Shown: positions 5,831 through 33,389 of the stretch, one piece after another
Layout of the letters: the number at the start of each line of letters is the position of its first letter
How positions within the stretch are numbered: position 1 is the stretch's first letter
DNA from: Perkinsus olseni
Taxonomy: Eukaryota > Perkinsozoa > Perkinsida > Perkinsidae
Reading direction: 5' to 3'
DNA: 64,000 nt
Assembly: GCA_013115135.1 (NCBI GenBank)
Contig: JABANP010000296.1
Span: 1 to 64,000 of the forward strand
The notes under the pieces: generated by a model
What the model was told of the DNA's origin: nothing
Seen by the model: only the letters and a program-made list of their open reading frames with translations
The model's database searches: none
Translations under genes and position numbers: made by a program

Positions 5831-8800
5831 GTGCGTTGTTCGAGAGCTACTTGCCGACTACCTCAGCTACATCCTCGCCTGTGCTCAGTCTCCGTCGTTG
5901 CCGCCAACTTCTTCGATACACTCGCGGCGCGCGTGGTGTCGCTGTCATCGAGTCTGACAGTGGCGGAGATCGGTGTCTTGATGGCGGCCTTCTCGAAAGT
6001 TGGGGTTTATCACGATCACATGGTGAGCGTCACCTTTGCTGTTTGCTGATCACTCCTGCCGTGAAAGTGTCGGTGAGTGGAAGGACATCGCTCTTCCTTG
6101 TTTTGGTAGGGGCTGCGTACTGCCCTCTCGGGTTCTCCCGGTTTCGTGTTGATTTCATGATACGGGACCCGTATTACGGGTGAGCTGCCTCCCATAGTTG
6201 TGCGCCTGATCAGTATCGCAGTTTTCCTCTCTTGCCTGACGAATTTTTACGTATAATAAAGTGTCCATAATAGGCTGTGAGGCTTTGGGAACACTAGGCC
6301 ACAAAGAGTTGGAGTGAGAGTCGCGCCTTATGCGTGTGCAATAGTCGTTCTACGTTATGGAAGAATGGACCACTACCGCGCAATTTACTGTACGCATCCA
6401 GCCAGTCGTAAGGCGACTCAACAGTGTGACGTGATGCTCTAGCATGGGGTGTCCCAACATCGCTCGTCTTCAACAGTGTGGGAGACGGCGGTCTGATTTT
6501 ACATTAATTGCGTTAGAAAAGACCTTATCGAATGCCCATCAGAGCCGATGGCGTGCCCCTCAGATGGAAGTACTCAAGGCCCGACTTCTGGTCGACCATT
6601 TACTCCGGGAAAGCGCCCAGCCGTCTGCTATTGCTGCAGTAAGCCGGTGAATCGATCGGGAATTCCACTGAGTATCTCAGATCTGCTGGTCCTACCTGGC
6701 GTTCGCTAAGCATGATCATGACATGGTCCATGCAGTTCATGAACGCCTGGAAGATTTGCTGTTTTCGGGCGAGCCGCTGCAGCTGAACGGCCACGGGTTT
6801 CTAGGAATTGCTGATTTCCTTTGCCAGTACGGGACCGCTGTTGCTGTGTGGTTCTCGTGGGGCACCGGTCGATCGCTTCAGATTCAATGATGGCGAGGTG
6901 ACTTCCTTAACGGAGCGGCTGATAGAGGTGGGCTTTTATGGTCCTCGGGATGATCTTACAATAGCCGACTTTTCGAGATCTCAGCATTCATTCCGAGTTG
7001 GGGTCTGGCGCCCCGTTGAAAGAAGTAATTCTGAAACTCAGAATCGATTATGGAATTGACTTTAGCACGTCAAATGTGATTCAGGAATCGATTTTCAGTC
7101 TCAGAGCGACGCTTGAAACTTTGGGGTTGTACCCAATAGGGGACCTGCAAGTAGCCCTACCCGTTTCGCCTCGGGAAGATACGGTAGCGGCGCGAGAAAT
7201 CGGATATTTCGAGATCGTTAGGTGGACTGTATAATGACTTAATTTTGTGGCGCGCGAAATTATTCTCTTGTAGGTGCAGTTGGCGACGGCAGGTTCCCGA
7301 GCCTGTCACCGAGCAATCTATCCCGGCTCCTCGGATGCTTCTCGAGAATCGATTATCCCTGGGCGAGCGCGGATGTCGACCGAGTTCGACTGGTAGGCTC
7401 TGGCCTTGGTTGAGAATGATCATGGGAAGCGATGGGGTTGCGAGTTGGGAAGTCTTCGAAAATTCGTGGAGCATCGGATTTGAATTTTTGGTGCATTTTT
7501 CGGTCGTCATACCGCGCTATTTTTCGCCTTAGCGGCTGAATAAACTCGTACGGTTGCAGGAGCTGCTCGACTGATATTGCAAGTCCACGGTTGTTGCAAT
7601 TCGAGGCCGCGAACCGCGTCTGTGAGGTGCTCCAAAAATCTTCGCTCCGTCGAATTATCATGCGCACTTTCACGAAAACGCAGACCGTAATGACGATCAG
7701 GAATGAGCCTTCATAGTCGTGATCCTCCTCCAGTGTCATTGGCTTCATAATAGAGTCTATATAACCCACCGATCGGTAACCCAGTTATTTGTCAGAGATC
7801 AAAATAATTTTGACTGAGTGATGCGAAGGGTATGAGCGCGACAGGTCTGTGGTGATTTGATTTTTTCAGTGCGTTAATCCAGCAGTACTGGAATCGATGC
7901 CGTGGCTGTCGGCGAGTGAGGGAATTGCAGTTGGGCAGTTCTACACTCATAGTGAGTTCGGGTATGGTTGAGGAATCACTTGGGATTTATTAAGTTGTTG
8001 GGCGAGTTGTGGTATGAATTCTTCGTGTGGACCTGAGAGACAGCGTTGATATTAGTCGGCGCGCATGATTAGCGCATGTCTTGGCGGCCTCTTCACAATA
8101 TTCGGACATGATAATTATCTGTCGGAGAAATGCCGGACCTGGGATTCGAACCTGCGACCTCGTAGTTTGATCGCCTAAGATGGTCCTCGGCTAGTTTCTG
8201 ACAATGTGCTAGCAATCCCGGAGTGATGCTTGACGGTTCAGTGGTACTTCGCTGCTTCAGTGACCTCTCGGTCGGCGCCTACAGAGCAGGAGGAGCAGAT
8301 ATTGTCGCAGTGCTTGGGTGAGTATCTAAGGTTGAAGCATAGCTTTGACATGTCGGAAAGATACGTCCCTTATTGGCTTGTATACCGTCGTCTCATCGGG
8401 TATCTTCCTGTCAGGGCCGAGCAAGGTGACGGCCTGCAGAGATCCTGAGGATATCGTAAAAACTCTCTCCTGCATAGCGAGACTGAGTCGGCTTGATAGC
8501 TCCAATGGTGAGTTATCGGCGCAACGTATCATAGCTTGAAGCTAGGAAGATACAAAATTGGTAGGTGTACCAGGGTACTCGGAGCGTAGAGCTCGACAGA
8601 CTGTAGGGGAGTTGCTGCGGTTGTTGGAGTCGCTTGGGGAGGAAATTGATGGACAGCTGGCGAACTCAATTATCATGAGTTGCAAGAGTTTGAAGGTGAG
8701 CTCGGAGCGACCTCTCCGGAGCTGGCTGAGAACGTTGATGGATACGCCCGTCCACTCGAGTTAGTTGATTTTCTAGTACTAGCAAGTTGGCGATTTTATG

Positions 8801-12200: not shown

Positions 12201-15200
12201 TCCTTCGCCGAGTTTCCGCCTTTCGATTGTCGAGCGACGCGGGAGCAATTCGGTGGATATAGCATGTAGTGGGTGGATAGCATCGAAAAGACACTCATCC
12301 TAGCACATTGGTGGCATGACTCACAAGTGGGCTAGAGTAGTGACCTGGATTGCCCGAGCAGCCACTTGTGTGGCATGACTCACTAGTGGGCTACAGTAGG
12401 GCAAGAGTGCCTTGGAGAGTGAATTAAGCTGGAATTTGAACCAAGACTGTCGGCTGCTTGGCAGCTTGACAAGCCATGTTGGATACGCCAGTGAGAGATT
12501 GGGATCGAGCTGCGGATTTATGCTCTCTATTCTATATTGGAGATACGTGTTCCTACACAGGTTTTCGTATTGAATTTCCCAGATGTCTCAACACTTATTG
12601 GTTGAGACATTTGTCTATCCTAGCACAAGTGAACTGATGCAATTTATCCGGCCCGGAAAGTGCTAGCGGCTAACAGGTGACACGGAGACCTTTCAAGGTT
12701 CGTTAGATATCTTGATATAACAAAAGCTTAAGGCCGAAGTCGATCTCGAGGGAGTGCCCCAGCGGGCCCAGCTGTGCGATGCTACTGTGCTTTTTATACA
12801 TTCTATCGGATATTTCTGTGCAGTGTTCTCGTTGTGAAGAATACACGAAGCCTATGCTTTCGCTCCGCTGCTGCGGTGATTCATTTTTCCAATTTTCATC
12901 AGGCTCTTAGTCAGAACCTCAAATTCGTAGGAATTGAACATCACTAGACTACGGTCATTCGATCACATCTTTGGGTATTTTTCTACCTAGGTGCTGGACT
13001 CGACTGGAGAGCCTGTTAATTGGGAGGCTTTGTACGACGAGGCAGCAGCAGCTATGGCTCATGCTGAAGAGATCACAGAGGAGCAGGAGCAGATGAACCG
13101 CGAAGAGAATGCTGGCATTTTTGGTGAGCTGGTGGTGAGGAAATGTGGGAGACTGGCTGATGACTCAGGGCCGATGGATGATGTGTGGCAGCAGCTGCAA
13201 CAGGAAGGCTGGTTACAGCAGGATGGTTGGACAAGCGCGAGAGATACGTATGAGTTCAATACGGAGAACCCGTAATGAAGGGGGGTGAACTAGACCCACA
13301 TGACGGGTAGATGTGATTTTGCTGCGCGCTAGTTTGGTTCATGGAGGTGGTGTGTTGAAGAGAATGATCGTTGACGTGGATGCTGTCTTATCGGTTATTG
13401 AGCTTAAAAGTTCCCGTACGATCGTCCTTGTAGCTCGCGTGGTAGACGTTGTGAATTTACTGTGAAACCGTCGGCAGCAACTTCGAGTTATGGAGGCTCA
13501 TGCCAGCTGCGCGGTTGTATAGGTACTTGGAATCTTCCGAGTCACCCTTGCAGTTGGCGATGAGGTTGTTGGCGGAGGGGAAGGACAAGGAGGCTATGCT
13601 TGCACTAGAGGCGGAGGTAGGCGCTGTAGGATAGAGACATCGTGATGAGGTGGGTTGGCAGGTCCAACAGCATCCGGACTCCTCGGAAGGGTGGCGGCTG
13701 CTGGGGTTGATGCATGCAGCAAACGATATGGATGTGGAAGCGATAGTGAGAGGAGGGCTGGAGGGGTCGCAGTGGTGGTGAGTTGGGTGTTTGCAGACGT
13801 GCCTGGAACGAGGTCATGAGGCGGACCCGTACAATACGGACAGCTTGCTGGCACTTGGAGTGTCTCTCACTAACGAGTTGGACTCTTATAGGGCGTTGAA
13901 AATCCTACGGTAAGTTGCTCGAGGCAGTGGCGCCTGGACGAATGCAAGGTTTTACACCGACATCGTGTCCGAGTGGTTAAGGAGTTGGACTTGAAATCCA
14001 ATGGGCTCAGCCCGCGCAGGTTCGAATCCTGCCGATGTCGTTTTCTCTGCATTTTTCATCTCGCTTCTTCGTTGACAGTGAGTGGCTCCAGAACCACGAA
14101 GCATATCACGGTCTCGTCGAAGCTAGCACTGCAAACCCCCAGATGCTACTGGACTACGACTTCTTGAAAAAAGACGTAGCCAGTTCGTAGTCAGACGCCC
14201 CCTTCATCCAGTGCGCCCCCGATCAGGTTGTCTCGCTCTTGGAGAGGGCGGCCGATAGTCGACCGCAAGACGCCGATGTCTTTCGTAGCACTCGGAGTAG
14301 CTTATAATATCGATAGGAGCTACGGCAGGGCGGCGGAGAGCTTCATAACAGCCGCTACATTGCGGCCGGAGGACCCGACTCTGTAAGTGGACCGTGCGGC
14401 AGTTGGATGCTCACTGTTGAAGTCTGGGAGCAGGTGGAACAAGCTTGGCGCAACCTTGGCAAACTCGGGGCTGTCTGAAGCGTCACTTGTGGCATATAAT
14501 CAGGTTAGACTTGGGTGGTTGAGAGGATGGTGATGGGGCTCTCGGGGGAGGTTGTCTCGCAGCTCGCTCGGTTGGACGGAGGTTGTCGGCTAGTCAAACT
14601 CGAGCATAAGGGATTGGCTCTCACAGTAGTCGAACTAGTGTAATTCTTTTCGGAGTGCTTAGATATTGAGTAATGGTTATGCTTTGTTATCATGACTTGT
14701 TTCGTTGGCGCAGGCCTTGAAGTTGAAGCCGAACTACGCTCGTGCATGGTCCAACCTAGCGATAGCTCACTGCAACTTGAATCAACATCAGGACGGGATA
14801 AGGTAGTTGTGTGGTTTCTAGAGACTTTCTGACTGATGTCTACGAGCAGGTTTTACTTGGCGGCGCTGAAGTTGAGTCCAAAGGCTGAGCATCTGTGGAC
14901 GCTGTTGTTCAACGCGGTAAGGCGCAGGTTCGACTCTCGGCAGGGGCGTTTTTAACAGCAATTTATTCAGCTCGTTCTTTACACAGGTCGCTGCGTGGGC
15001 TCCTGAGCGAGACGAGCTGGGCGACATGGTGGACCGTCGCGACATGGACGGCCTGAGTGCAGCAGTTGGGGGAGGGGTAGTAAAGCTCGGGTTATGTCAC
15101 TTTAATTTAGTTGGTTCGCTCTCCGAGCAATGATCAATCGTACTGTGAAGATAAGCGCTTCTTAGACTCACACGACGTACCTTGTCGATTATCATATCGG

Positions 15201-15321
15201 CCGTCCACAGGTGCCGGACGTTGAGAACCTTCCCTCTCCCGAGCGTAACCTTCCACAGTCGGTAGCAGAAGTGGTGGCTTCGCTGAGAGCGCAGATGAGG
15301 AGACCTCAGAACGAGGGCTGA
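9235..15321 (+). CDS. PEX5: Peroxisomal targeting signal 1 receptor PEX5, about 16 exons
   Basis: PEX5 is the cytosolic receptor that binds PTS1 cargo through a TPR domain and delivers it to the peroxisomal docking complex. The start is ATG 9235 (MFNNPGGQPSKPANV...). N-terminal exons (9235-9364, 9820-9961, about 10.3-10.55, 10.83-11.08, 11.56-11.65 kb) are low complexity. They hold a WxxxF-type motif (NWAQEF) near 10345 and FANSQFVDFVDQIVKGDLQ near 11595, like the family's SKF..FV.QI segment. Exon 12991-13271 ends TYEFNTENP, matching the Y.F...NP that precedes the TPRs. Exons 13523-13616, 13650-13745, 13797-13909, 14079-14175, 14212-14382, 14434-14503, 14714-14802, 14850-14915, 14987-15076 and 15211-15321 encode the TPRs, including ALGVAYN, WNKLGATLANSGLSEASLVA and LKPNYARAWSNLAIAHCNLN, up to TGA 15321. 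Introns are 33-213 nt except two larger ones. One extra base at about 14285 breaks the frame just before ALGVAYN (+1). Introns hold a whole tRNA-Ser and a tRNA 3' half. Confidence 0.9.
11653..12990 (+). other. Long PEX5 intron with a repeated hairpin motif
   Basis: This 1.3-kb stretch between two PEX5 exons shows no further exon that I can support, though a second WxxxF exon could hide here. It holds two near-identical copies of GTGGCATGACTCAC(A/T)AGTGGGC at about 12311 and 12370. The second is preceded by GCCAC, giving a potential hairpin also seen at 4801. Confidence 0.5.
13959..14040 (+). tRNA. tRNA-Ser(UGA), inside a PEX5 intron
   Basis: An 82-nt class II tRNA. The acceptor stem GACATCG/CGATGTC pairs perfectly with G73, as expected for serine. 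The D-arm is GTCCGAGTGGTTAAGG. The anticodon stem TTGGA/TCCAA encloses CTTGAAA (anticodon TGA). A long variable arm (GGGCTCAGCCC) and T-arm (GCAGGTTCGAATCCTGC) complete it, followed by TTTT. No CCA is encoded. It lies in sense orientation within the PEX5 intron 13910-14078, 49 nt after the 5' splice site, so it may be made from its own Pol III promoter, released from the intron, or both. Confidence 0.95.
14916..14986 (+). other. Short PEX5 intron built around a tRNA 3' half
   Basis: The intron is fixed by the protein on both sides (LWTLLFNA | VAAWAPERDE). Five nt after its GT comes GCGCAGGTTCGACTC, identical over its first 12 bases to the T-arm of the tRNA-Ser in the upstream PEX5 intron. An acceptor-like strand (GGCAGGGGCG) and a run of five T follow. 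No D-arm or anticodon arm is present upstream. Confidence 0.6.
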
Positions 15322-15866
15322 GGATAATTTCGTGGCGCGTGACGGTGATCATAGTAGTTGTGAAATTTTATTAATAATGTTTCTCCTTAAGCCGCGTTGG
15401 GTTCTAGCGCGATAAATTCGCGCTGTCGGACACGAGATGGGAATAATTCTCTTCTTCAGAAATGACAAGACCGATTGAAGTCTTTCACAAGGTTCGACAT
15501 TATTCGGAATTTGTTAGATTATCAAACTTTTTTCTCAGATCAGAACGGTCGTCACTGACCGCTGAGTTGTTTTCGGGCGAGCAATAATTCCGGCCACAGA
15601 AAAGTTCTTTTTGGATTTTCGTATTTCACTTGGCGAAAAACTCCACTTATCAAATTACGGGTGAAACTCCTCAAATATATGCGCGCGAGGAAAATGGCAG
15701 CCTTTCGTCCGCGTAGCGTTGGGAAGAGAGCTCGTGCTGTGAGTCAATGACCGGACAGGAGGCAAGCTTACCAGCTTTGACATCGTTCCGCGAAGAGAAT
15801 GTCTTTCCCACGCCCGTTATGTGGTAATTATGACTTCATATTGAGTAGAAATATTGGGATAGCATT
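15322..15866. other. Intergenic between PEX5 and SEC20
   Basis: No gene is visible. It begins with another copy of the AATTTCGTGGCGCGTGACGG motif (about 15328), a few bases after the PEX5 stop, and continues AT-rich. Confidence 0.45.
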
Positions 15867-15998
15867 TTGTCGCTTTTGATTAATTCACTCACTCGCGGCT
15901 TCTTTTTCACGCGGCGCCGAAGTTCGCCTGTGTGGCGCCTGAAGGAGATTTTCCCTCTTGCCAGGAGGCGCGTGTTCATCAGTTGTTCATCTCTTCAA

Positions 15999-17439
15999 AT
16001 GGCGGAGTCAGCAGCAGCAGCAGCAGGAAGGGAGCGGCTGTTTGGTTCGACCTCCTCCTCGTCGACGACTGCCAAGTCCACCACTGAGGGGAGCTCGAGT
16101 AGTAGTAGAGCGGCGGGGAGGGTGATGAGGAGATCGGTACAACAGATGAGGGAGAATGTTGAGGTGCGAAGGGATGGTCGTGGCGTGTGCCAAGTTTAAC
16201 GTCGAGTGAGTTTCATTGGCATTTCTTGCGCTTGGGGGCTCTCTTGGCGAGCATCGCTGTGAGAATTGAGCACAGTAGTGGCGAAGTGGCGTTGAACTGC
16301 CTATGAAGTTGCGATAATCACAACAGTGGTGGAGGTATTAAAGTGGCAGCTACCGGTACTACCGGTGTTGGACCGTACCCATGATCGACCTCCGCCGAGA
16401 AGGGCGACGGAGTGTTTCGAATCCAACTGGCTTAGTCTGACTACCAGCGATGTGTCTTGGTCGTAGTATTCCCTCGGTTGGAGTTGTGTAGTTTTTTCTA
16501 AGTTGATTGTGGAGAGGACTGGGTTCGGCGGCTGTCAATATTATGAATTTCTGAATGTTATAAATTAGAAATGTCAACAATATTATGTATTTCTCTGGTC
16601 GAGTTGGCGAGCACTAGGCCTTCGTGACGAAAGTTCGAATCCCACGGGCGTCACTTTTGAGCGCACTTATTTTGTGGTGGCTTTCCAGTGGTAGTTGGGG
16701 AGGGTGCCGAAATGAATAGAAAAAGGTTTCTGCGAGATCTTCGGACGGTGAATTTGTAATGAGTACTATGAGCGGAGAGTCGTTGAGATAAATCGCAACG
16801 AGTGATATACGAACGAAGCTATCGGTGAGTGAGGGAATATTCTGCCCTTCGCCATTAGTTGCTATTGGCGACTCGGAGGAGACGTTGGCGCAATTCTGAT
16901 TGAAAAAGTGTATAATGAGGTTGTGGTGAGTAACCAGTGCACGAATATCCTGGAGTCGTTGGGATACATCTCCGTTAAGTTGAAATAACCAGATATCTTT
17001 TTTTCTATTATTAGAAATCAGATCAAGTAAATCGTGTTTTCAAATTGCTGGAGAAGTTTGAGAATCTTTTCTTCACTCTCAGCGCATGCGAGTTACCGAA
17101 GATACGCTGACCGATTCCAGCGGCAAGATCAGGGATGTTAATGACGAGTACGCCAACAACTACTCGGGAGCGTTGAAGACGGCAAGTGAAGCGATGACCA
17201 GTCTGAAGAGAAGAATCGACGCGGATGACAAATTCATCTGGTGGTCATTTATTTTCTTCATGCTGGTGTGTGTGTTTATCATTCTGAAACGGTTGATGAT
17301 TTTCTCCCTTTCCGCGTGGCTGTTTCGGATCGTCGCCAAGCCGATTTCTGTCGGTTATCAAACCATTGTCCAGCCTGCCGTTCGTTCGTTCAGCGGTTAT
17401 GATAATTTCACTGATTTGCCGGGCGTTGAGGAGTTGTAA
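15999..17439 (+). CDS. SEC20: SEC20 (BNIP1-type) Qb-SNARE
   Basis: Sec20 is an ER-resident SNARE for retrograde Golgi-to-ER fusion. The first exon (ATG 15999, MAESAAAAAGRERLFG...) is Ser-rich and ends RVMRRSVQQMRENVE before gtgcga, matching the R..M...V segment at the start of the SNARE helix. The last exon starts at 17083 after cttcactctcag. It reads EDTLTDSSGKIRDVNDEYAN, then a hydrophobic membrane anchor of about 21 residues (about 17227-17300), and ends with TAA at 17439. The tail after the anchor is about 45 residues, longer than the short lumenal tail typical of the family. An in-frame upstream ATG exists at 15867, but the conserved part starts later. A middle exon in 16.2-17.0 kb is likely but not placed. 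The intron region holds two repeat types (16413-16465 and 16624-16654). Confidence 0.75.
16413..16465 (+). repeat. Intronic repeat copy (GGCTTAGTC family) in SEC20
   Basis: The segment TGGCTTAGTCTGACTACCAG plus flanks resembles stretches near 21822 and 43634, both also just upstream of plus-strand exons. This copy is the most diverged and lacks a seven-base piece present in the other two. Confidence 0.45.
16624..16654 (+). other. tRNA 3'-half-like sequence in a SEC20 intron
   Basis: A hairpin GTGACG...CGTCAC encloses AAAGTTCGAATCCCACGGG (T-loop TTCGAAT) and is followed by TTTT. GTGACG could itself be a 5' splice site, with a CCAG 3' site at 16688. No 5' half of a tRNA is seen. Confidence 0.4.
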
Positions 17440-20172
17440 AATTACTTCATCTCGAAGCGGTGTTGCTTTGTTAACATCAATCTTGGGGGACTCGGGCGTG
17501 CGGAGGTTTTCTTTTCTTTCGTCTGTTTTTTGGAAAAATCATCGTCCTTTTCTCAGCCGGAGAGTTGTATGCTTGACGCTTGAATGCCGGTTGAGCTTGG
17601 TTCCTGACGAGATCAGCGATGGTTTTTTCCGTGGTCGTAGAAAAAATTATATTTTTTAGGTGTAGCAGGTGGCTTGGTGTCGTTGATGGTGGAGAGAGAG
17701 TCTCTTGAAGCGACTGACGGAGTGAAGAACAACAGTTGAGATTTTGGTTTGTGGTTGCTCGAAACTTGCTCAGAAATCGATCTTAAAGTGGATCAAATAA
17801 AAAAGGAAATTTTTGAGAAAGGGGAAAATATTTATCGCCTGGTAAAAAATGGAAGTGATTTTTCTTAGCAATGATTGGTGGATGGTATGGTATTCGAGTT
17901 GTGATCTGCTGTCTGCGCACCTCTATGACCGATTCAGCTCGGCTGCGGCGCTCCTCCCTGTTGTCTGACCGAGGTAGGGTCAACAGATTTTTCAAGTGGA
18001 AACGAGGCTGAAATTTTTTTCGCGATTTTTCGTGCAAGTTCGAAATGGTAGCTTGCGCGTCCAAGAGGGTTGGAGATCGCTAGAGCACGTGCAAGCCGTT
18101 TGAAAAGTGGTTTTCTCTTGATGCGAGGAGAATCTTTAAATCTTCGCTGTGCGCAGAGATGCATCTTTGTTGTTGTTATCTCAAGCCCCTTAGACCATGA
18201 CAGACTCTGCAAGGTTGAAGATTCTTGTGACGGCTTCTTCGGAACTCCTCGGACGAATGGTGCTGCACACTCTAGCGAAGTAGGAATCCGAGGTCGAAGC
18301 TGGCAACTCACAGGTCTTGAAGATTCCCCGCAGCACGGCCCTCATTTTTACCACTTCCACTGAATTCTCGTCGAAGTTTTTTGGGGGGGTAGCAGAGGAT
18401 AGCGTGGTTGTTGGTGACTACGAAATTTCTCTCTCCGAATTTTTTCTTCACGTTTTTTTTCCGAGAAAAAAGGTTTTCGAGTTTTTCTTTTTTTCGGTAT
18501 TTTACGCCGTTTGAATTTGAATCGCCCATGTTCTACTATCAAGACATAGCAGTCGTTGTTGGGGTTTTTCCAAAGTAGTGGCAACCTCGGCAACGCACCC
18601 ACGGTGTATACGAGTGAGCTTAATGTCAGGCAACATCCAAGTTCTGTCATTTTCTTATTCGTCGAATCGGGAGCGGAAGACTGCTACATCGTTGACGGAA
18701 ATTTTGGTATGGGAAAAACTGACAACATACCACCAAGCGCCCCGAAGATCAACAAAATCTACGCTGATGCAGGTAGAGCGTTGAAGAATTGCAAGAGAGG
18801 GCAAGATTAGCAAGATTCAGGTCCTTTTCCTGCTGATATTAATGCTGTTGTTTACTGCAATAGCAGTAGCCCGCCTGAACAGGTGGCTAAGTAGTAGCCC
18901 GACTTGCCCTGCGCTGGTCTGTCTTCAATCTTTCTGTCTGTAAGGTTCTTCGATCGATGCATATCACAGCTGCCTGGGCTGAGTATCTTTGTTTATGCTA
19001 GTTCGATTTATGTCAACTGGGGTGCAAAAGGGCGTCATGGCGGAGAGGATACTAGCATGGTGAGCGTGGATACGGCCTCTGCCTACGATCTGCTTTGTAC
19101 TGGTGTGTCTTTCCGCGGTCCGGGTCACTGCAGTCGGTTGCAACTTCTCTTTCCACCTGATTTTTTCGAATTCGGGACATCAAGAATTTCCTGGTGAAAT
19201 TCCCATGATGCAGAGGTTGGGAGTGTGAACAGCACGTGGTAGGGCTCTGACTGTGAAGTCTGCCTCTGTGGCCAGACTTCTATTTATTTCTTCGATTGCA
19301 TCGTCAGAGCCGCACCAACTCATGTTTGGTGCCTACCACTACTGTTCAGTAGGGTACCAGAGACCACCTGACTCTGTGTCAACAACGGACCAAGGCAGCG
19401 GCCTCTGGTGTCCTCCAGGGTGCGGAGGGCTGGGTTCAGCTCACATCCGCGCGTACAACCATTGGTGATTCCACAGTTCCTCATGCTTATTAGTCGGTAC
19501 ACGCGTGTAACGAGGTAAAGCTCGGATTGGTAGGAGGTGGTGCGCTCGCGTGCCCCCGTTAGGCGTGTCTCCCCGCCGTGTCACAAGGCCGCGGTGGGAT
19601 CAGGCCGCGTGCCTGGGTCTCTAACGACCTTGGACGTGTTCACGTTTGGACCCGCCCTCCCGCCCGGTTCGGGTTGGGGGATCGGGTTGCGGACTCTCTC
19701 TGTCGTCCGCTCCTCTTTCTGAGCGATCCGCTGGTGCGCTCTTCTGCCCATGGTTCGAGATGTTGCCGACGGACACTCGGAAGGAGCTTTAGAGTCCACT
19801 AGCTCTAGCGTTATTGAAGCACCTCGTAGCAGGCTCCACGCACATTTCCTCTGCTTATGTGAAGTCCACTCCCGCTGATCCTCCTGCGGGAGGACTGCGA
19901 CCATGAACTCAATATTCGGCGCGTGTGGAGGAACAGGAGTTGGTAGGAGCTATCAGTGAGGGTATTCCTGCTAGAGCTGGGCAACCGTACTGGAGTCGAG
20001 GAAATTACGGTACGGAGTACGTTTGAAACTGCCAACCTACTACGGGGACGGATGACTAGTACGTATTAACTATATTAAACAACGCATACGTGTATTGAAT
20101 TACGCCGTACTTCAAGTTCGGCGTACTAGCACGGTACTTGGGGACCGCTGCGACGGACAGTACGGGTACGAA
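17440..20172. other. 2.7 kb without a confidently recognised gene
   Basis: Short open stretches exist, for example 18190-18275 (LKILVTASSELLGRMVLHTL) and about 18985-19075 (LPGLSIFVYASSIYVNWGAK), but I could not join them into a credible protein. T-rich runs occur at 18380-18500. From about 19985 the sequence becomes rich in GTAC, leading into the minisatellite. Confidence 0.4.
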
Positions 20173-20508
20173 GCCGTACTAGACCGTACCCGTACCGTAC
20201 TAGACCGTACTAGACCGTACCCGTACCGTACTAGACCGTACTAGACCGTACCCGTACCGTACTAGACCGTACTAGACCGTACCCGTACCGTACTAGACCG
20301 TACTAGACCGTACCCGTACCGTACTAGATCGTACTAGACCGTACCCGTACCGTACTAGACCGTACTAGACCGTACCCGTACCGTACTAGATCGTACTAGA
20401 CCGTACCCGTACCGTACTAGATCGTACTAGACCGTACTAGACCGTACTCGACCGTACTAGACCGTATCCGTACCGCACTAGACCGTACTAGACCGTACTC
20501 GTACTGTC
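20173..20508. repeat. GTAC-rich minisatellite, about 31-bp unit
   Basis: Tandem copies of a unit of about 31 bp are made of CCGTAC and CCGTACTAGA blocks, with about ten near-identical copies and decayed ends. The unit is full of the palindrome GTAC. There is no open frame through it. It is probably a slippage or unequal-exchange array. Confidence 0.85.
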
Positions 20509-21940
20509 GCCCACCTCTGATTCCTGCGCCACCTTCGGGGGCAGTGTACCCCTACCACGGCCGACTAATAGCAACAATTATCACTGAGATCGAGTAGCCG
20601 GGGTCGTTTGGTGAGTGAGTAGAGGCACCTAATTCCGGCCCTTTTTGGGGTCATTTCGTTCGGTCGGGGAGAGTGTCTTTGACAGGCTTTCGAGCTCCTG
20701 CCGACTGCGGAACGTCCGAGGGCCTCATCGATGGCGGCGAGGCTGATTGGAAGCTCACGGAAGAGATGGCCAAGCAAGAGTATATATCTTAAGTAAGAGG
20801 GGGGTGGAAGGGGAGTATCTTTATTGCGTTACAGCGAGTAACCGAGATGTTTGTGAATTGCCAGGGTCAACCTAAGATACGACGATCTACACAGTCATTG
20901 TTTTGTTTCCTTCCCCTCTTTCCCCTCCGGGTTCGAGCGACGTGAGAATCGTCTTCATCGAACAACAGTGCTTCTTCTCGGCGTCAATCGATTCAGTGAG
21001 GATTTAGTTGGGGCAGCGTTCCCTCTCAGTTACTGCTCCGAGCAAGCTCTGACGAGGCGCTGGCTGCAGAATGAGCGTTCCTGTCGACTGGTGAGAGTTG
21101 CGTGCCTCCATCAGATTATCGTTTAGTCAATATAGATAGTTTTGTAGACTCATTAGAAGTTATTTATTCGGGTTTTTTTCGGTGGACGAAACCGTTATGA
21201 AAATGGCATTTTTTGTGATAACTTGCTCAATTTGGAAAGTTACCCCACCGCTCTCGGTAGACGTCGAGTAACAGCGTAAAACTCTCGAACTAGAAGCTTC
21301 ATAGATGTCAATTCTATTATTAAACTATGCTTCGTAACGAACAAAGCGGAGCTCGGAACGAAGTCTCGGGTTCGAACCCCAGCCAGGGCTTTTTATTCTG
21401 TATTTTTTCGGGTTCATCTACAACGGTCCACGCTGGTTTTGGTTGGTAGAACAGGAATGGGCGCGATGTCGTATTTTTATAGAATATATGAATCGAGACC
21501 TTTCGATTGGTATGCGTCCCATGAGTTCATTCAGCATAGTCGTGGAGAAATAATTTGAACGAACGAACGGACGAACGCAAAAAAAAGGCGCAGAAGTGAC
21601 AGTATATGCTCCGCTCGCTCCGCAACTTTCACTCGATACACGGTTCACTTTGCCAGCATTCCAATGCTAATAAAGCAAACACGGCAGTATTCGGGAGTGC
21701 TTGAGAGCGTTAGGGTGGACTATCAACTTCGTGCCCGTTGTCTGTCGCGATTGAACACAGCGTTGCTCTGTGTGCCTCGTGTTCAAAACACAAAGTGTCT
21801 TTTGAGTTCAACGCCGTAGACCGGCTTAGTCCGACTAGCACCGACGGTATCTCGTTCGAAAGGGGATGAGTTCAAGCTAGTTCGACCATCGTATTGTGCT
21901 CGTTATCGTGACAATGGACTTACCAAAATTTCTCTCAGGC
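20509..21940. other. No confident gene; tRNA 3'-half and intron repeat copy
   Basis: A possible exon lies near 21020-21085 (RRWLQNERSCRL before gtgaga). At 21363-21391 a tRNA-like 3' half (GTCTCGGGTTCGAACCCCAG then CCAGGGC) is followed by a run of five T, without a matching 5' GCCCTGG upstream. At about 21808-21880 is a good copy of the GGCTTAGTC repeat, about 70 nt before the tctcag that precedes the next exon. Confidence 0.4.
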
Positions 21941-22433
21941 ATTCGTCAGACTGGGGTTACTCACCCCGCCAGCATGTTCAACTCTATCGAGAGCGTTCAG
22001 TGCTGTGGCGGAGCGAGTGATGGTGCCGGAAGCGCGCGCCCTGGCCAGGGCGAGGGTTGGCAAATCCGCGAGTGATCTGATGACGATTTCGCTGTTGCCG
22101 ACTTTGGACGGTCGGAAGACCGATCCGAAAGCGGTGATTCTCATCACACCGGCTGATCTGGCTGCTCGAGCTGTCCTCAGTGCCGCTGTCGAAGGGGTAC
22201 GCGGCAGCGCTGAGGTACGCATGGTCGCGGGTTCGAACCCAGGTGAATTCCTTTTTCTGCCTTTTTAGATTACTGAAAGCCCGCAAGTATATGCTCTGGC
22301 ATTGGCCTCGCCCATGCTGCAGTGGGACAAATTACGTTGTCTGATAATCGATCATTCGGGCGGGCGCGTATCTGCCGCTGATGGCCGCGGTACCGGCGCT
22401 GTTCTGCGCCGTGCTCCCCCTCCCCATGAGGTA
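21941..22433 (+). CDS. Unidentified exons running in frame into GNPAT
   Basis: Exon A (about 21941-22214, after ttctctcag) reads LGLLTPPACSTLSRAFSAVA and later KAVILITPADLAARAVLSAA. Exon B (22269-22433) reads ITESPQVYALALASPMLQWD and ends before gtaacg. They are joined by a 54-nt intron that holds a tRNA-like half. I do not recognise the family. No stop separates these exons from the next exon at about 22593-22820, so they may be an N-terminal extension of GNPAT or a separate gene whose end I cannot see. Confidence 0.4.
22215..22268 (+). other. 54-nt intron containing a tRNA 3' half
   Basis: GTACGC is followed within ten bases by GTCGCGGGTTCGAACCCAGG, a T-arm-like piece, then TGAATTC, a run of five T and CTTTTTAG. 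The flanking exons are open, but the protein is unidentified, so the splice sites are less certain than those in PEX5 and GNPAT. Confidence 0.45.
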
Positions 22434-22592
22434 ACGCTGGGCCGACTTGCCGTCAAATTAGAAATTTCGTGCGGAAGAAAATTCCAGAAAATTCTATATT
22501 TTTTTCTGGAAATTTGGAGCTTGACGCGAAGGATCTTTCAATGAGGCTATCGCCACGACACCTTGGGTGATCCCTAAGCCCCTCTCGATCAG

Positions 22593-25500
22593 GTTTGCAG
22601 CGCCACGCTGGAGCGAATCGATCCCGAGGTCTGCGCAGACGTCCGCGGCCTGCATATTCATAACTATCTCACCCACTGTCTTGGACTGATCGAAAATGGC
22701 GGAGCGGAGTTTTTGGATGTTCGCCCGCCCACCGGAAGAAGTCTGACGATGCAGCAGCCGCTGCGCTATACTGATGTTTTATCGGATGCAAAATGGCAGC
22801 ACGGCGGAGTACTCAATTTTGTGAGTTGTAAATAATTTCGTGGCGCGCGGTAATTTTTTTCCTGCTGTGATAGGCGCTGCGGAAGGAAGCCCTGTCGTAT
22901 TACATGCCTAGCATGGAGCGTGTGAGGTCGTTGGTGATGAACTCGAGGGCCGTCCGGGAAGCAACTCACAGCAAGAAGTTGAAGGGGGAGGCGGAGGCCA
23001 TGCTGGTGAGGCGGAATTATGGAATTTTCGAGCGCATTGGAATGAGTGTTTCGCGTGGTTACGTGGGCCTGTGAATATCGGGAAATATGGTATGATTTGA
23101 TGAAATTATTTATTCTGAGCAATAATTCGGAGTTTGGCGACGGAAAGAGAAGTTCCTCGTTCATGCTGTCTTCAACGTTTATACTGTTTTGTCGAGACGA
23201 ATGAGCCAAACGAAAGAATATTAAGTTTTTGTCTGGAAAACAGTAGAATTTTTCATAAATTTAAATTATTCAATAATTTATTATTTTTTTGCATCACAGA
23301 GATGAACTGACTGCCGTCCGGTCGATGTCGTTATATCATATCGCGGTGTTTCAGGACCGCATTATGGGCAACCAGCGAAGCGACGTGCTCAGGGGGTTCG
23401 TCATAGTCCTTCATCGTGTTTTCACTTCTATTTATGATCGAGTACTTGTCAATCATGATGGTCTTGGGAAGCTGAAAGAGTAGGTCCCCGGTTCGAATCA
23501 CCCTCGGGGCATTTTGCTTTCACAGATTGAACCAGCGTGGTGCAAAGATTCTTCTACTACCGACACATAGGAGCTACATTGACTTCCTGGTGCTCAGCTA
23601 CATCTGCTACTAGTAAGAACTCACGGTGTGGCAAGATAGTGAGTGATACCCCGCGCAGGGTAGGGGCGACAACATACCTTCTGGATTGTTGTTTTTCCAT
23701 GGTCTCTCGTGTTACGCAGGCCCCATTTGTACTAGTGAAGTCGAACTCCGCGATGAGCCTCAGATTTAGCGGCCAATCGGGAGTTGATTGCCTTCGATGT
23801 TTCAGTGCCGACATTCGGCTGCCTTTTATCGCTACTGGGGACAACTTCTTTTCTATTGCGGGGATTTGGAAGATATTGCAGCATTCTGGTGAGAAATGAC
23901 TGGAAAAGTTCCGATGCGGGGACTCGAACCCCGGTCGCGTGGGTGAGAGCCACGAATCCTAACCAGCTAGACTACATCGGAGGATAGATATTAGGATCTT
24001 CCACGCGCTCCGCTCCAATATAGGTGCCTTCTTTATGAAACGCTCCTTTAACAGCGAGACTCACCCTCTGTACTCGATTGTCTTCAAGACCTACATGCAA
24101 GTCATACTCGAAGAACAAGGTGAGCGAAGGCGTCTCATCCCCAGCGGTTGCTCTTTGTAAGCGATAAAGATTAAGATTGCCGTGAGTATTTCGAATTCAT
24201 CCGGTCACTCGTTGTAGCGCAGAGCCTCTCCTTATTCTGTAATTTAAGGCTTCGGTTCGAAGCCGTTGAGTGCGTGGCTGTGGCGGAACGGTCAGAAATT
24301 TTCGTGGGAAACCACTTGGAGATGGCAGGCAGCTCTTGGCAGTGGGTCTCATTCTGTCAGGATGTGTCGAGATGTTCATAGAGGGAGCTCGGTCGAGAAG
24401 CGGCACGATGATACGCCCACCCAAGGTTGGGCTCTTGAGGTTCGCCACTGAGCCGGCGGTCCAGACCGCGATGAACGCGAGTTCGGCTTCTGATTTCACG
24501 GGTAGGAACTCAGTCTTCGCGGGAGAATTCGGCTAGAACGGTCGAAGAGGTTAAGCCTCTTCCTCCGATTGGTAAGCAACGACTCAGTTATAGATGAGAA
24601 TAACAACCGTGTAGTTTCGAATTACCAAAGAGCCCGACCCGATTCCGATCACAGGATTTAGGCTTTCTATAGAGCGCTCCCGTTCAACCCGGATTCATTG
24701 TGTGGAATGCCGTCCTAGTGTCCTCGAAAGGGGGATGAATTCACCGAGCTCAGCCAGTAGTGTTCCGATCAGATGAAGATGAGGTTTTCCTCGTACCGAT
24801 TTCTATCGGATATTCCCGAGTGATGGAAGTCGATTCCCTCGCCACCGAGCTGGAGGGTCGAGCCAAAGTCGCCGAGAGCCTCGCGAGGACGGTCTCGTAG
24901 GCGCCGACACGCCATCGCGGCGGTTGCAGGTCTCCTCTGGCAGAGCCTTGCGCTACTTGTCTATGAACTTCGGAACACTGACGGTCCATATCGACCCCGA
25001 GCCGATCAAGGTCAGCGACGTTGTCAAGCGGTGGATGAGCGAACAGAAAGGTGGGCAGCCACTTGCCATCTTACTCTCACTTGCAACTTCCTCAACTCTG
25101 GAGTCATCGACAGGTGACTATTCCGCTTCCCATGTTCCTCCGAAGTCCCCTCGATACGCCACGCCCTATCAGCAGCTCGCAGAGGAAGTGGCTGATCGTT
25201 TGGACGCCAACATGCCCATCCACACCACCCATCTGGTGAGGGTTCGCCGGAGGGGTTTGGGTCGCTGCCCGGCGGACGGTGGGAGGTTGAGCTCAGGTGG
25301 CGGCAATTTTGTTGTGGAAGCGACACGATTCGTCTTCCGCTGTAAGCCACGCTTTGATGGTGGACAAGGTGAGGTGGTTGTCATCTTTGTTGAGAAGACG
25401 TGGCTTGACGGTCATACTTGATGACAACAATGTAAGCGGTCCCGGGTTCGATTCTCCCCGATGGTATTTTGCTGGATCGCCTTCAGACTTCCTCGGCCGT

Positions 25501-27987: not shown

Positions 27988-28060
27988 GCCCTGCTGGCCC
28001 AATGGATAAGGCGTCTTCCTCATAAGGCGAAGGTTCTGCGATCGATCCCCGGGTAGGGTA
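27988..28060 (+). pseudogene. tRNA-Arg-like pseudogene with a CAT anticodon triplet
   Basis: Bases 1-26 and the acceptor are identical to the intact tRNA-Arg at 33317. The anticodon loop, however, reads CTCATAA instead of CTCCTAA, the anticodon stem has a mismatch, and the T-loop is ATCGATC instead of TTCGATC. Loss of T54 argues for a pseudogene. If expressed it would read AUG on an Arg body. Confidence 0.7.
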
Positions 28061-33316: not shown

Positions 33317-33389
33317 GCCCTGCTGGCCCAATGGATAAGGCGCCACCCTCCTAAGGTGGAGATTCCGGGTTCGATCCCCGGGTAGGGTA
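33317..33389 (+). tRNA. tRNA-Arg(CCU)
   Basis: The acceptor GCCCTGC/GTAGGGT pairs with two G-T wobbles, with A73. The D-arm is GGCCCAATGGATAAGGC. The anticodon stem CCACC/GGTGG holds CTCCTAA (anticodon CCT). The T-arm is CCGGGTTCGATCCCCGG. Only ATTTC follows, a weak terminator. It lies 22 nt past the stop of SLX1, convergent with it. Confidence 0.93.

Follow-up and report, generated by a model that had tools for sequence, protein, structure and literature searches.

Short introns carrying transfer RNA 3′-half sequence in Perkinsus olseni, probable introner-like elements used in both orientations

The DNA analysed here is a 64,000-nt stretch of Perkinsus olseni (contig JABANP010000296.1, positions 1 to 64,000; hereafter the window), in which four short plus-strand introns each carry a sequence resembling the 3′ part of a transfer RNA (tRNA). 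These are a 70-nt intron of PEX5 (14917–14986, with tRNA-like positions 44–73 at about 14919–14948, then T5), a 54-nt intron in exons of no assigned gene (22215–22268; about 22222–22251, then T5), a 46-nt intron of a GNPAT-like gene (23480–23525; about 23482–23511, then T4) and a 55-nt intron downstream in the same GNPAT-like region (25432–25486; about 25437–25466, then T4). A preliminary description, made from the letters of the sequence, had placed all four here, and only the PEX5 start had to be moved by one base (14917, not 14916). Besides a T-arm core and a T-run, each intron contains a word like that of a tRNA variable loop, an acceptor-like stretch and a discriminator place. The G preceding TTCGA lies 11–16 nt after the GT in all four, and the distance from GTTCGA to the T-run is 15 nt in every one of them, as it is by eye in the window's complete tRNA-Ser and tRNA-Arg; this agreement in register spacing bears out the T-arm, acceptor and T-run that had been described inside the introns. 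A cmscan search with all of Rfam, up to E = 10, returned five complete tRNAs in the window and no match at the four introns, and no 5′ half was seen by eye, as had also been remarked.

The PEX5 intron is the best fixed of the four. Across its junction the residues LFNAVAAWAP are continuous in a P. olseni protein and in a P. marinus protein, and the match to the PEX5-related structure 4eqf extends two residues beyond the junction. Removal of 23480–23525 joins LKE to LNQRGAKILLLPTHRSYIDF, and a Pfam acyltransferase match (E 0.0011, below the cut-off) begins exactly at this junction, so only the 3′ side of the intron is fixed by it. For the introns at 25432 and 22215 the sole support is the open frame: both run GT...AG, removal of the former keeps an open frame in which ILDDNN is joined to TSSAVSRVASLY, and removal of the latter leaves one frame open over all 160 codons translated. 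The earlier claim that conserved protein sets the ends of three of these introns holds for PEX5 and, on one side, for 23480, while 25432 is supported by its open frame.

Four further tRNA-like 3′ pieces were found in the window, and the gap from GTTCGA to the T-run is 14–16 nt across all eight. Two plus-strand pieces had been pointed out near 16624 and 21363, and both are present, as tRNA-like pieces rather than established introns. The first (16624–16653) has D-arm-like sequence upstream by eye, while the second (21361–21390) lies inside a dispersed repeat and is overlapped by a chance-level cmscan match to mt-tmRNA (E 7.7, minus strand). Two others, at minus-strand positions 8151 and 123, are new: one spans 8131–8160 and reads AGGTC GCAGG TTCGAAT CCCAG GTCCGGC A TTT, and the other spans 103–132 and is followed by T5. 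The dispersed repeat is about 300 bp long (21320–21619, 86% identical to locus L006, 797–1099) and carries a tRNA-like T-arm and T-run; short words of it also occur by eye in the 16624 and minus-strand 123 pieces. Complete tRNA genes lie inside introns as well. A PEX5 intron on the plus strand (13910–14078, ends by eye, joining ILR to EWLQNHEAY) contains a complete sense tRNA-Ser (13958–14041) called by ARAGORN and Rfam, and a likely plus-strand intron of the GNPAT-like gene (23889–23994, ends by eye only) contains a complete antisense tRNA-Glu (23908–23981).

Patterns taken from the window were compared across the genome of this eukaryote (61.5 Mb, 968 contigs), with the same pattern read backwards as the control. 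Once spliced, a PEX5 stretch of 157 aa from the window shows 99% identity to a named P. olseni protein, and the spliced-leader pattern CCGTAGCCATN{2,4}GGCTCAAG, built on the Perkinsus sequence given in a section of PMC3101222, had 98 genome matches and none in the control. The tRNA 3′-half word AGGTCNNNGGTTCGANNCC had 903 matches against 2 in the control, which rules out chance B boxes, and 2561 against 16 when up to one mismatch was allowed. Patterns led by a donor word were also in excess, with 160 matches against 33 for GTAAGN{2,14}GGTTCGANNC and 173 against 35 for GTGAGN{2,14}GGTTCGANNC, while the antisense form GTAAGN{5,25}GNNTCGAACC had 183 against 57, some of these matches being sense copies with a palindromic core. 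A hand extrapolation from the counts with no mismatch and with one (903 and 1658) gives very roughly 5,000 units genome-wide, on the assumption of equal divergence over all fixed sites.

Ordinary tRNA genes are ruled out as the source of these matches, as they account for 5 among the first 100 of the 903 AGGTCNNNGGTTCGANNCC places listed, with a sixth (L273) added by eye. ARAGORN called two tRNAs in the first 30 places and none in a further 63, three more being known tRNA genes; L012, L016, L272 and L273 received no call, and L273 resembles by eye a tRNA-Asn of full length whose acceptor end is broken. In a comparison set of IMG/VR phage contigs, the same word lay inside ARAGORN tRNAs in 108 of 137 cases. 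A tRNA 5′-half word had 408 matches against 0 in the control, many of them in tandem arrays, and eight of ten fetched single places are ARAGORN tRNA genes, with one more resembling by eye an intron-bearing tRNA-Tyr. The 3′ half is dispersed and the 5′ half, on this small sample of 10 places, is not; elsewhere in the genome there are a few longer pieces of tRNA-like sequence that include a D-arm. Tandem arrays of tRNA genes and 5′-half words with periods of about 150–360 bp were seen at L260–L262 and L266 and in contigs C108, C112, C142, C154, C778 and C823. At positions 131770–154530 of contig C57 the pattern GTGAGTG.TGTGGGGTTCGAACC occurs nine times, with a spacing of 1,332–1,350 bp for eight of the copies; this is likely a repeated unit carrying such an element.

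The splice settings were analysed in 90 distinct non-tRNA copies. Donor-like words numbered 41 in the 15 nt upstream of position 44, against 8–9 per bin elsewhere, and antisense donor-like words numbered 20, 19 and 18 in three bins that together cover +15 to +60 past position 44, against about 8. At the place where a tRNA gene has its T-run, TTTT occurred 73 times (bin +30 to +45), against about 5. A tight test, which combined a strong donor, a pyrimidine-backed YAG and an open frame of 75 nt or more on each side once the intron is removed, was passed by 46 of the 90 copies (24 sense, 19 antisense and 3 in both directions); the pass rate was 13.5% among 2000 random positions and 10.8% among 360 shifted anchors. 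Antisense copies had not been seen in the preliminary description and prove nearly as frequent as sense copies (22 vs 27 of the 90). The median intron length is 51.5 nt (64 introns), most of which is the element, with the splice sites in it or next to it. The family proposed earlier, of introns seeded or overwritten by tRNA-derived sequence, is real and large, being found genome-wide with enrichment at splice sites, and it is tied to introns in both orientations. A first open-frame test had been dropped as too loose (57 of 86 copies, against 36 of 86 for the mirror antisense and 408 of 1000 random positions), and a coding score trained on long open reading frames was poor and was also dropped.

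Fifteen spliced element peptides were compared with Pfam, and in 11 of them, representing 12 introns (9 sense and 3 antisense), one match spans the junction. The bridged sense junctions lie in genes for an ammonium transporter, kinesin, CK2 alpha, SNF2, a histidine-kinase ATPase, a TPP enzyme, a zinc-ribbon (RCHY-like) protein, a 2-hydroxyacid dehydrogenase and an amino-acid transporter, the last with only 7 residues of the match upstream of the junction, and the bridged antisense junctions lie in genes for a TPP enzyme, adenylosuccinate synthetase and ubiquitin hydrolase. The other four junctions were not bridged by Pfam: in the helicase the match stops short of the junction, in the GNPAT-like peptide it begins there, and the PRPS and L072 peptides have no match. 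CK2 alpha and adenylosuccinate synthetase align without gaps to solved structures across the junction. The kinesin intron splits the P-loop in one of 13 loci, since all 12 other matching kinesin loci run uninterrupted through the site. The SNF2 intron is missing from both informative other loci, one of which has a stop codon, and is shared by a close copy. These comparisons are between paralogs, not orthologs, and those in the kinesin family lend support to a putative intron gain that is as yet unproven. Dispersal in unrelated genes, a unit that is most of the intron and the single split kinesin locus all sustain the term introner-like that had been used for these introns.

The units keep the tRNA register and do not keep T-stem pairing. 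Column profiles show tRNA features outside the words fixed by the search, namely AGGTC (in the GTAAG-selected set), C50, C72, A73 and T74–77. Outer T-stem pairs numbered 133 of 270, against 143 ± 5.5 in shuffled sets and 319 of 324 in real tRNAs counted in the same way; an overlapping set agrees. Near-identical 3′ blocks recur at different loci in 18 pairs against 2.0 expected, one of which (L235/L236) is a near-duplicate locus, and near-identical 5′ blocks recur in 26 pairs against 3.6 expected. The identities of the 5′ and 3′ blocks are uncorrelated (r = −0.01), and recurrent blocks without such correlation are as expected of units assembled from different tRNAs. Mantel tests between blocks are informative for the T-stem only, as real tRNAs are likewise little linked elsewhere. 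Three simpler origins were rejected: straightforward decay of tRNA 3′ halves that were once intact, because their T-stems pair no better than shuffles while real tRNAs have 319 of 324; a single decaying ancestor, because acceptor positions 66–69 are near flat and yet 3′ and 5′ blocks recur; and primer-binding sites of long terminal repeat elements or mature tRNA, because positions 74–76 are mostly T and not CCA.

A few other features of the window may be recorded. The sequence at 27988–28060 is an ARAGORN tRNA-Met (CAT), barely at the Rfam cut-off (29.4 bits), and resembles the tRNA-Arg (CCT) at 33317 in diverged form. A tandem repeat of CCGTACTAGACCGTAC-like units was seen by eye at about 20160–20510, and the word GGGTCAACCTAAGATAC occurs exactly at window position 20864 and at L073 position 1561 only, among the Perkinsus sequences compared.

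The reading that best accommodates these results, and that we regard as probable, is that the units are introner-like elements of tRNA 3′-half origin. A unit of about 30–40 nt, corresponding to tRNA positions of about 37–73 and the T-run of RNA polymerase III (Pol III), would be inserted at many sites in protein genes in either direction and would be removed as a spliceosomal intron of about 50 nt, with the intron presumably created by the insertion and not already there to be filled. In the sense direction the anticodon-loop and variable-loop side would become GTAAG, GTAATCG or GTAGGTC and the T-run would become the pyrimidine tract before AG. In the antisense direction the T-run side would give GTRAGA or GTAA, with the variable-loop side giving the pyrimidine-rich stretch before AG.

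Several results weigh against this reading. The tight splice-plus-frame test was failed by 44 of the 90 copies. No clear target-site duplication was found, the mean junction run in the 64 introns being 2.09 against 2.03 in shuffled sets (sd 0.05), and single offsets in the sense set reaching z of 2.1 to 3.1. The 3′ blocks (compared with 10 tRNA types) and the 5′ blocks (compared with 9) match real tRNAs no better than shuffles do, in a comparison that left out five further tRNA types, and a T-stem-matched donor for the 3′ block present in five copies had 0 genome matches. Lastly, in six element pairs from duplicated loci counted in both directions, differences fall at 6 of 168 core sites against 48 of 324 sites in the flanking blocks, which hints at selection on the core rather than plain relics; the pairs are few and partly found via the motif, one is the intergenic repeat, and L027/L028, without the C48 of the pattern, was left uncounted.

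How new units would be formed is a matter for a tentative guess, namely that each combines different tRNAs into a mosaic, with the join at the T-loop word they share. A possible route is template switching by a reverse transcriptase on an end-extended pre-tRNA near the modified base 58. Mosaics made by template switching would have unmatched T-stem halves, would lack CCA and would begin close to the anticodon loop. Put together, Perkinsus might make spliceosomal introns from chimeric tRNA 3′ halves, two tRNAs being joined at the T-loop and used in either direction, with the T-run serving as pyrimidine tract one way and as GTAAR donor the other; we put this forward as a possibility that may well prove wrong.

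Among the alternatives, the one that survives best is that the introns are old and that tRNA 3′-half pieces were inserted into them or overwrote them. Complete tRNA genes are also found inside introns here and aligned duplicated loci share their elements, as such filling would allow; however, introns with a median of 51.5 nt are mostly unit, the splice sites lie near the unit on both strands, and the kinesin P-loop intron is missing from the 12 other kinesin loci, so we consider filling unlikely. Less likely still is a functional DNA motif, in which the core would be kept for a host factor, most likely TFIIIC at the B box, while its surroundings would resemble tRNA only secondarily. The core matches the Pol III B box, it occurs in both orientations, it differs less than its flanks in the six pairs, and T-stem pairing is not kept; as both orientations occur, one can more readily picture a factor acting on DNA, for instance TFIIIC, than a signal in RNA. 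Yet a B box does not include AGGTC, the acceptor end or a T-run at fixed spacing, the near-identical 3′ and 5′ blocks at unrelated loci are unexpected from motif selection alone, and the conservation itself comes from the six pairs described above. Decayed tRNA pseudogenes, or a tRNA-derived short interspersed nuclear element (SINE), lying in introns by chance would suit the few longer D-arm pieces and the dispersed repeat with a tRNA-like end, but are hardly credible given that eight of the ten 5′-half places are tRNA genes, that decayed copies would retain T-stem pairing above chance and that splice sites stand close to the unit.

The origin of spliceosomal introns is a long-standing question. 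If the introner-like reading is true, a host tRNA gene would be a second source of introns, usable in both orientations, beside the known large-scale source, transposons acting as introners (as set out in parts of PMC9860276). It would also mean that the end of a Pol III gene bears splice-site-like signals on both strands, and intron gain would become testable across Perkinsus genomes. No report of tRNA-derived introners or of Perkinsus introners was found in the open-licence literature searched.

Two known kinds of B-box-bearing sequence differ from the Perkinsus units. SINEs derived from tRNA start at the tRNA 5′ end, carry a body and a tail, contain the Pol III B box and are present as dispersed copies. 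They have tRNA sequence with a B box, and dispersal, in common with the Perkinsus units, whereas the units are 3′ halves only and fill the intron; a SINE-type tRNA 5′ part with an A box did not turn up, there being no tRNA match at the window introns and eight of the ten fetched 5′-half places being tRNA genes. Extra TFIIIC (ETC) sites are B-box-like motifs away from tRNA genes, and the units contain such a motif too, but the fixed register of the 3′ end, the T-run and the placement in introns are not ETC features.

The introners of Micromonas, Aureococcus, fungi and Amoebophrya (the last in PMC7789003; survey in PMC9860276) are likewise dispersed short units that form introns in unrelated genes; the words 'tRNA' and 'Perkinsus' are absent from the main text of the survey PMC9860276 on a word search. 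The Amoebophrya introner elements have inverted repeats and direct repeats of 3–5 nt according to portions of PMC7789003. The Perkinsus units differ in being a tRNA 3′ half and in having no clear duplication. Closer in taxonomy are the Dada transposons, present in P. marinus and so in the same genus, which are mobile DNA associated with tRNA genes. Dada insertion inside a tRNA gene goes with a 6–7 bp duplication; excerpts of PMC3706591 describe the insertion into tRNA genes, give TAGCTC, within the A box, as the putative duplication of three families in P. marinus, and report, in zebrafish, insertions flanked by fragments of different tRNA genes. The Perkinsus units, in contrast, start at about position 37 or later and lie in protein genes, without an A box and without a transposon body. 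Dada is not a match to these units and is best taken as a lead for how pieces of tRNA might move.

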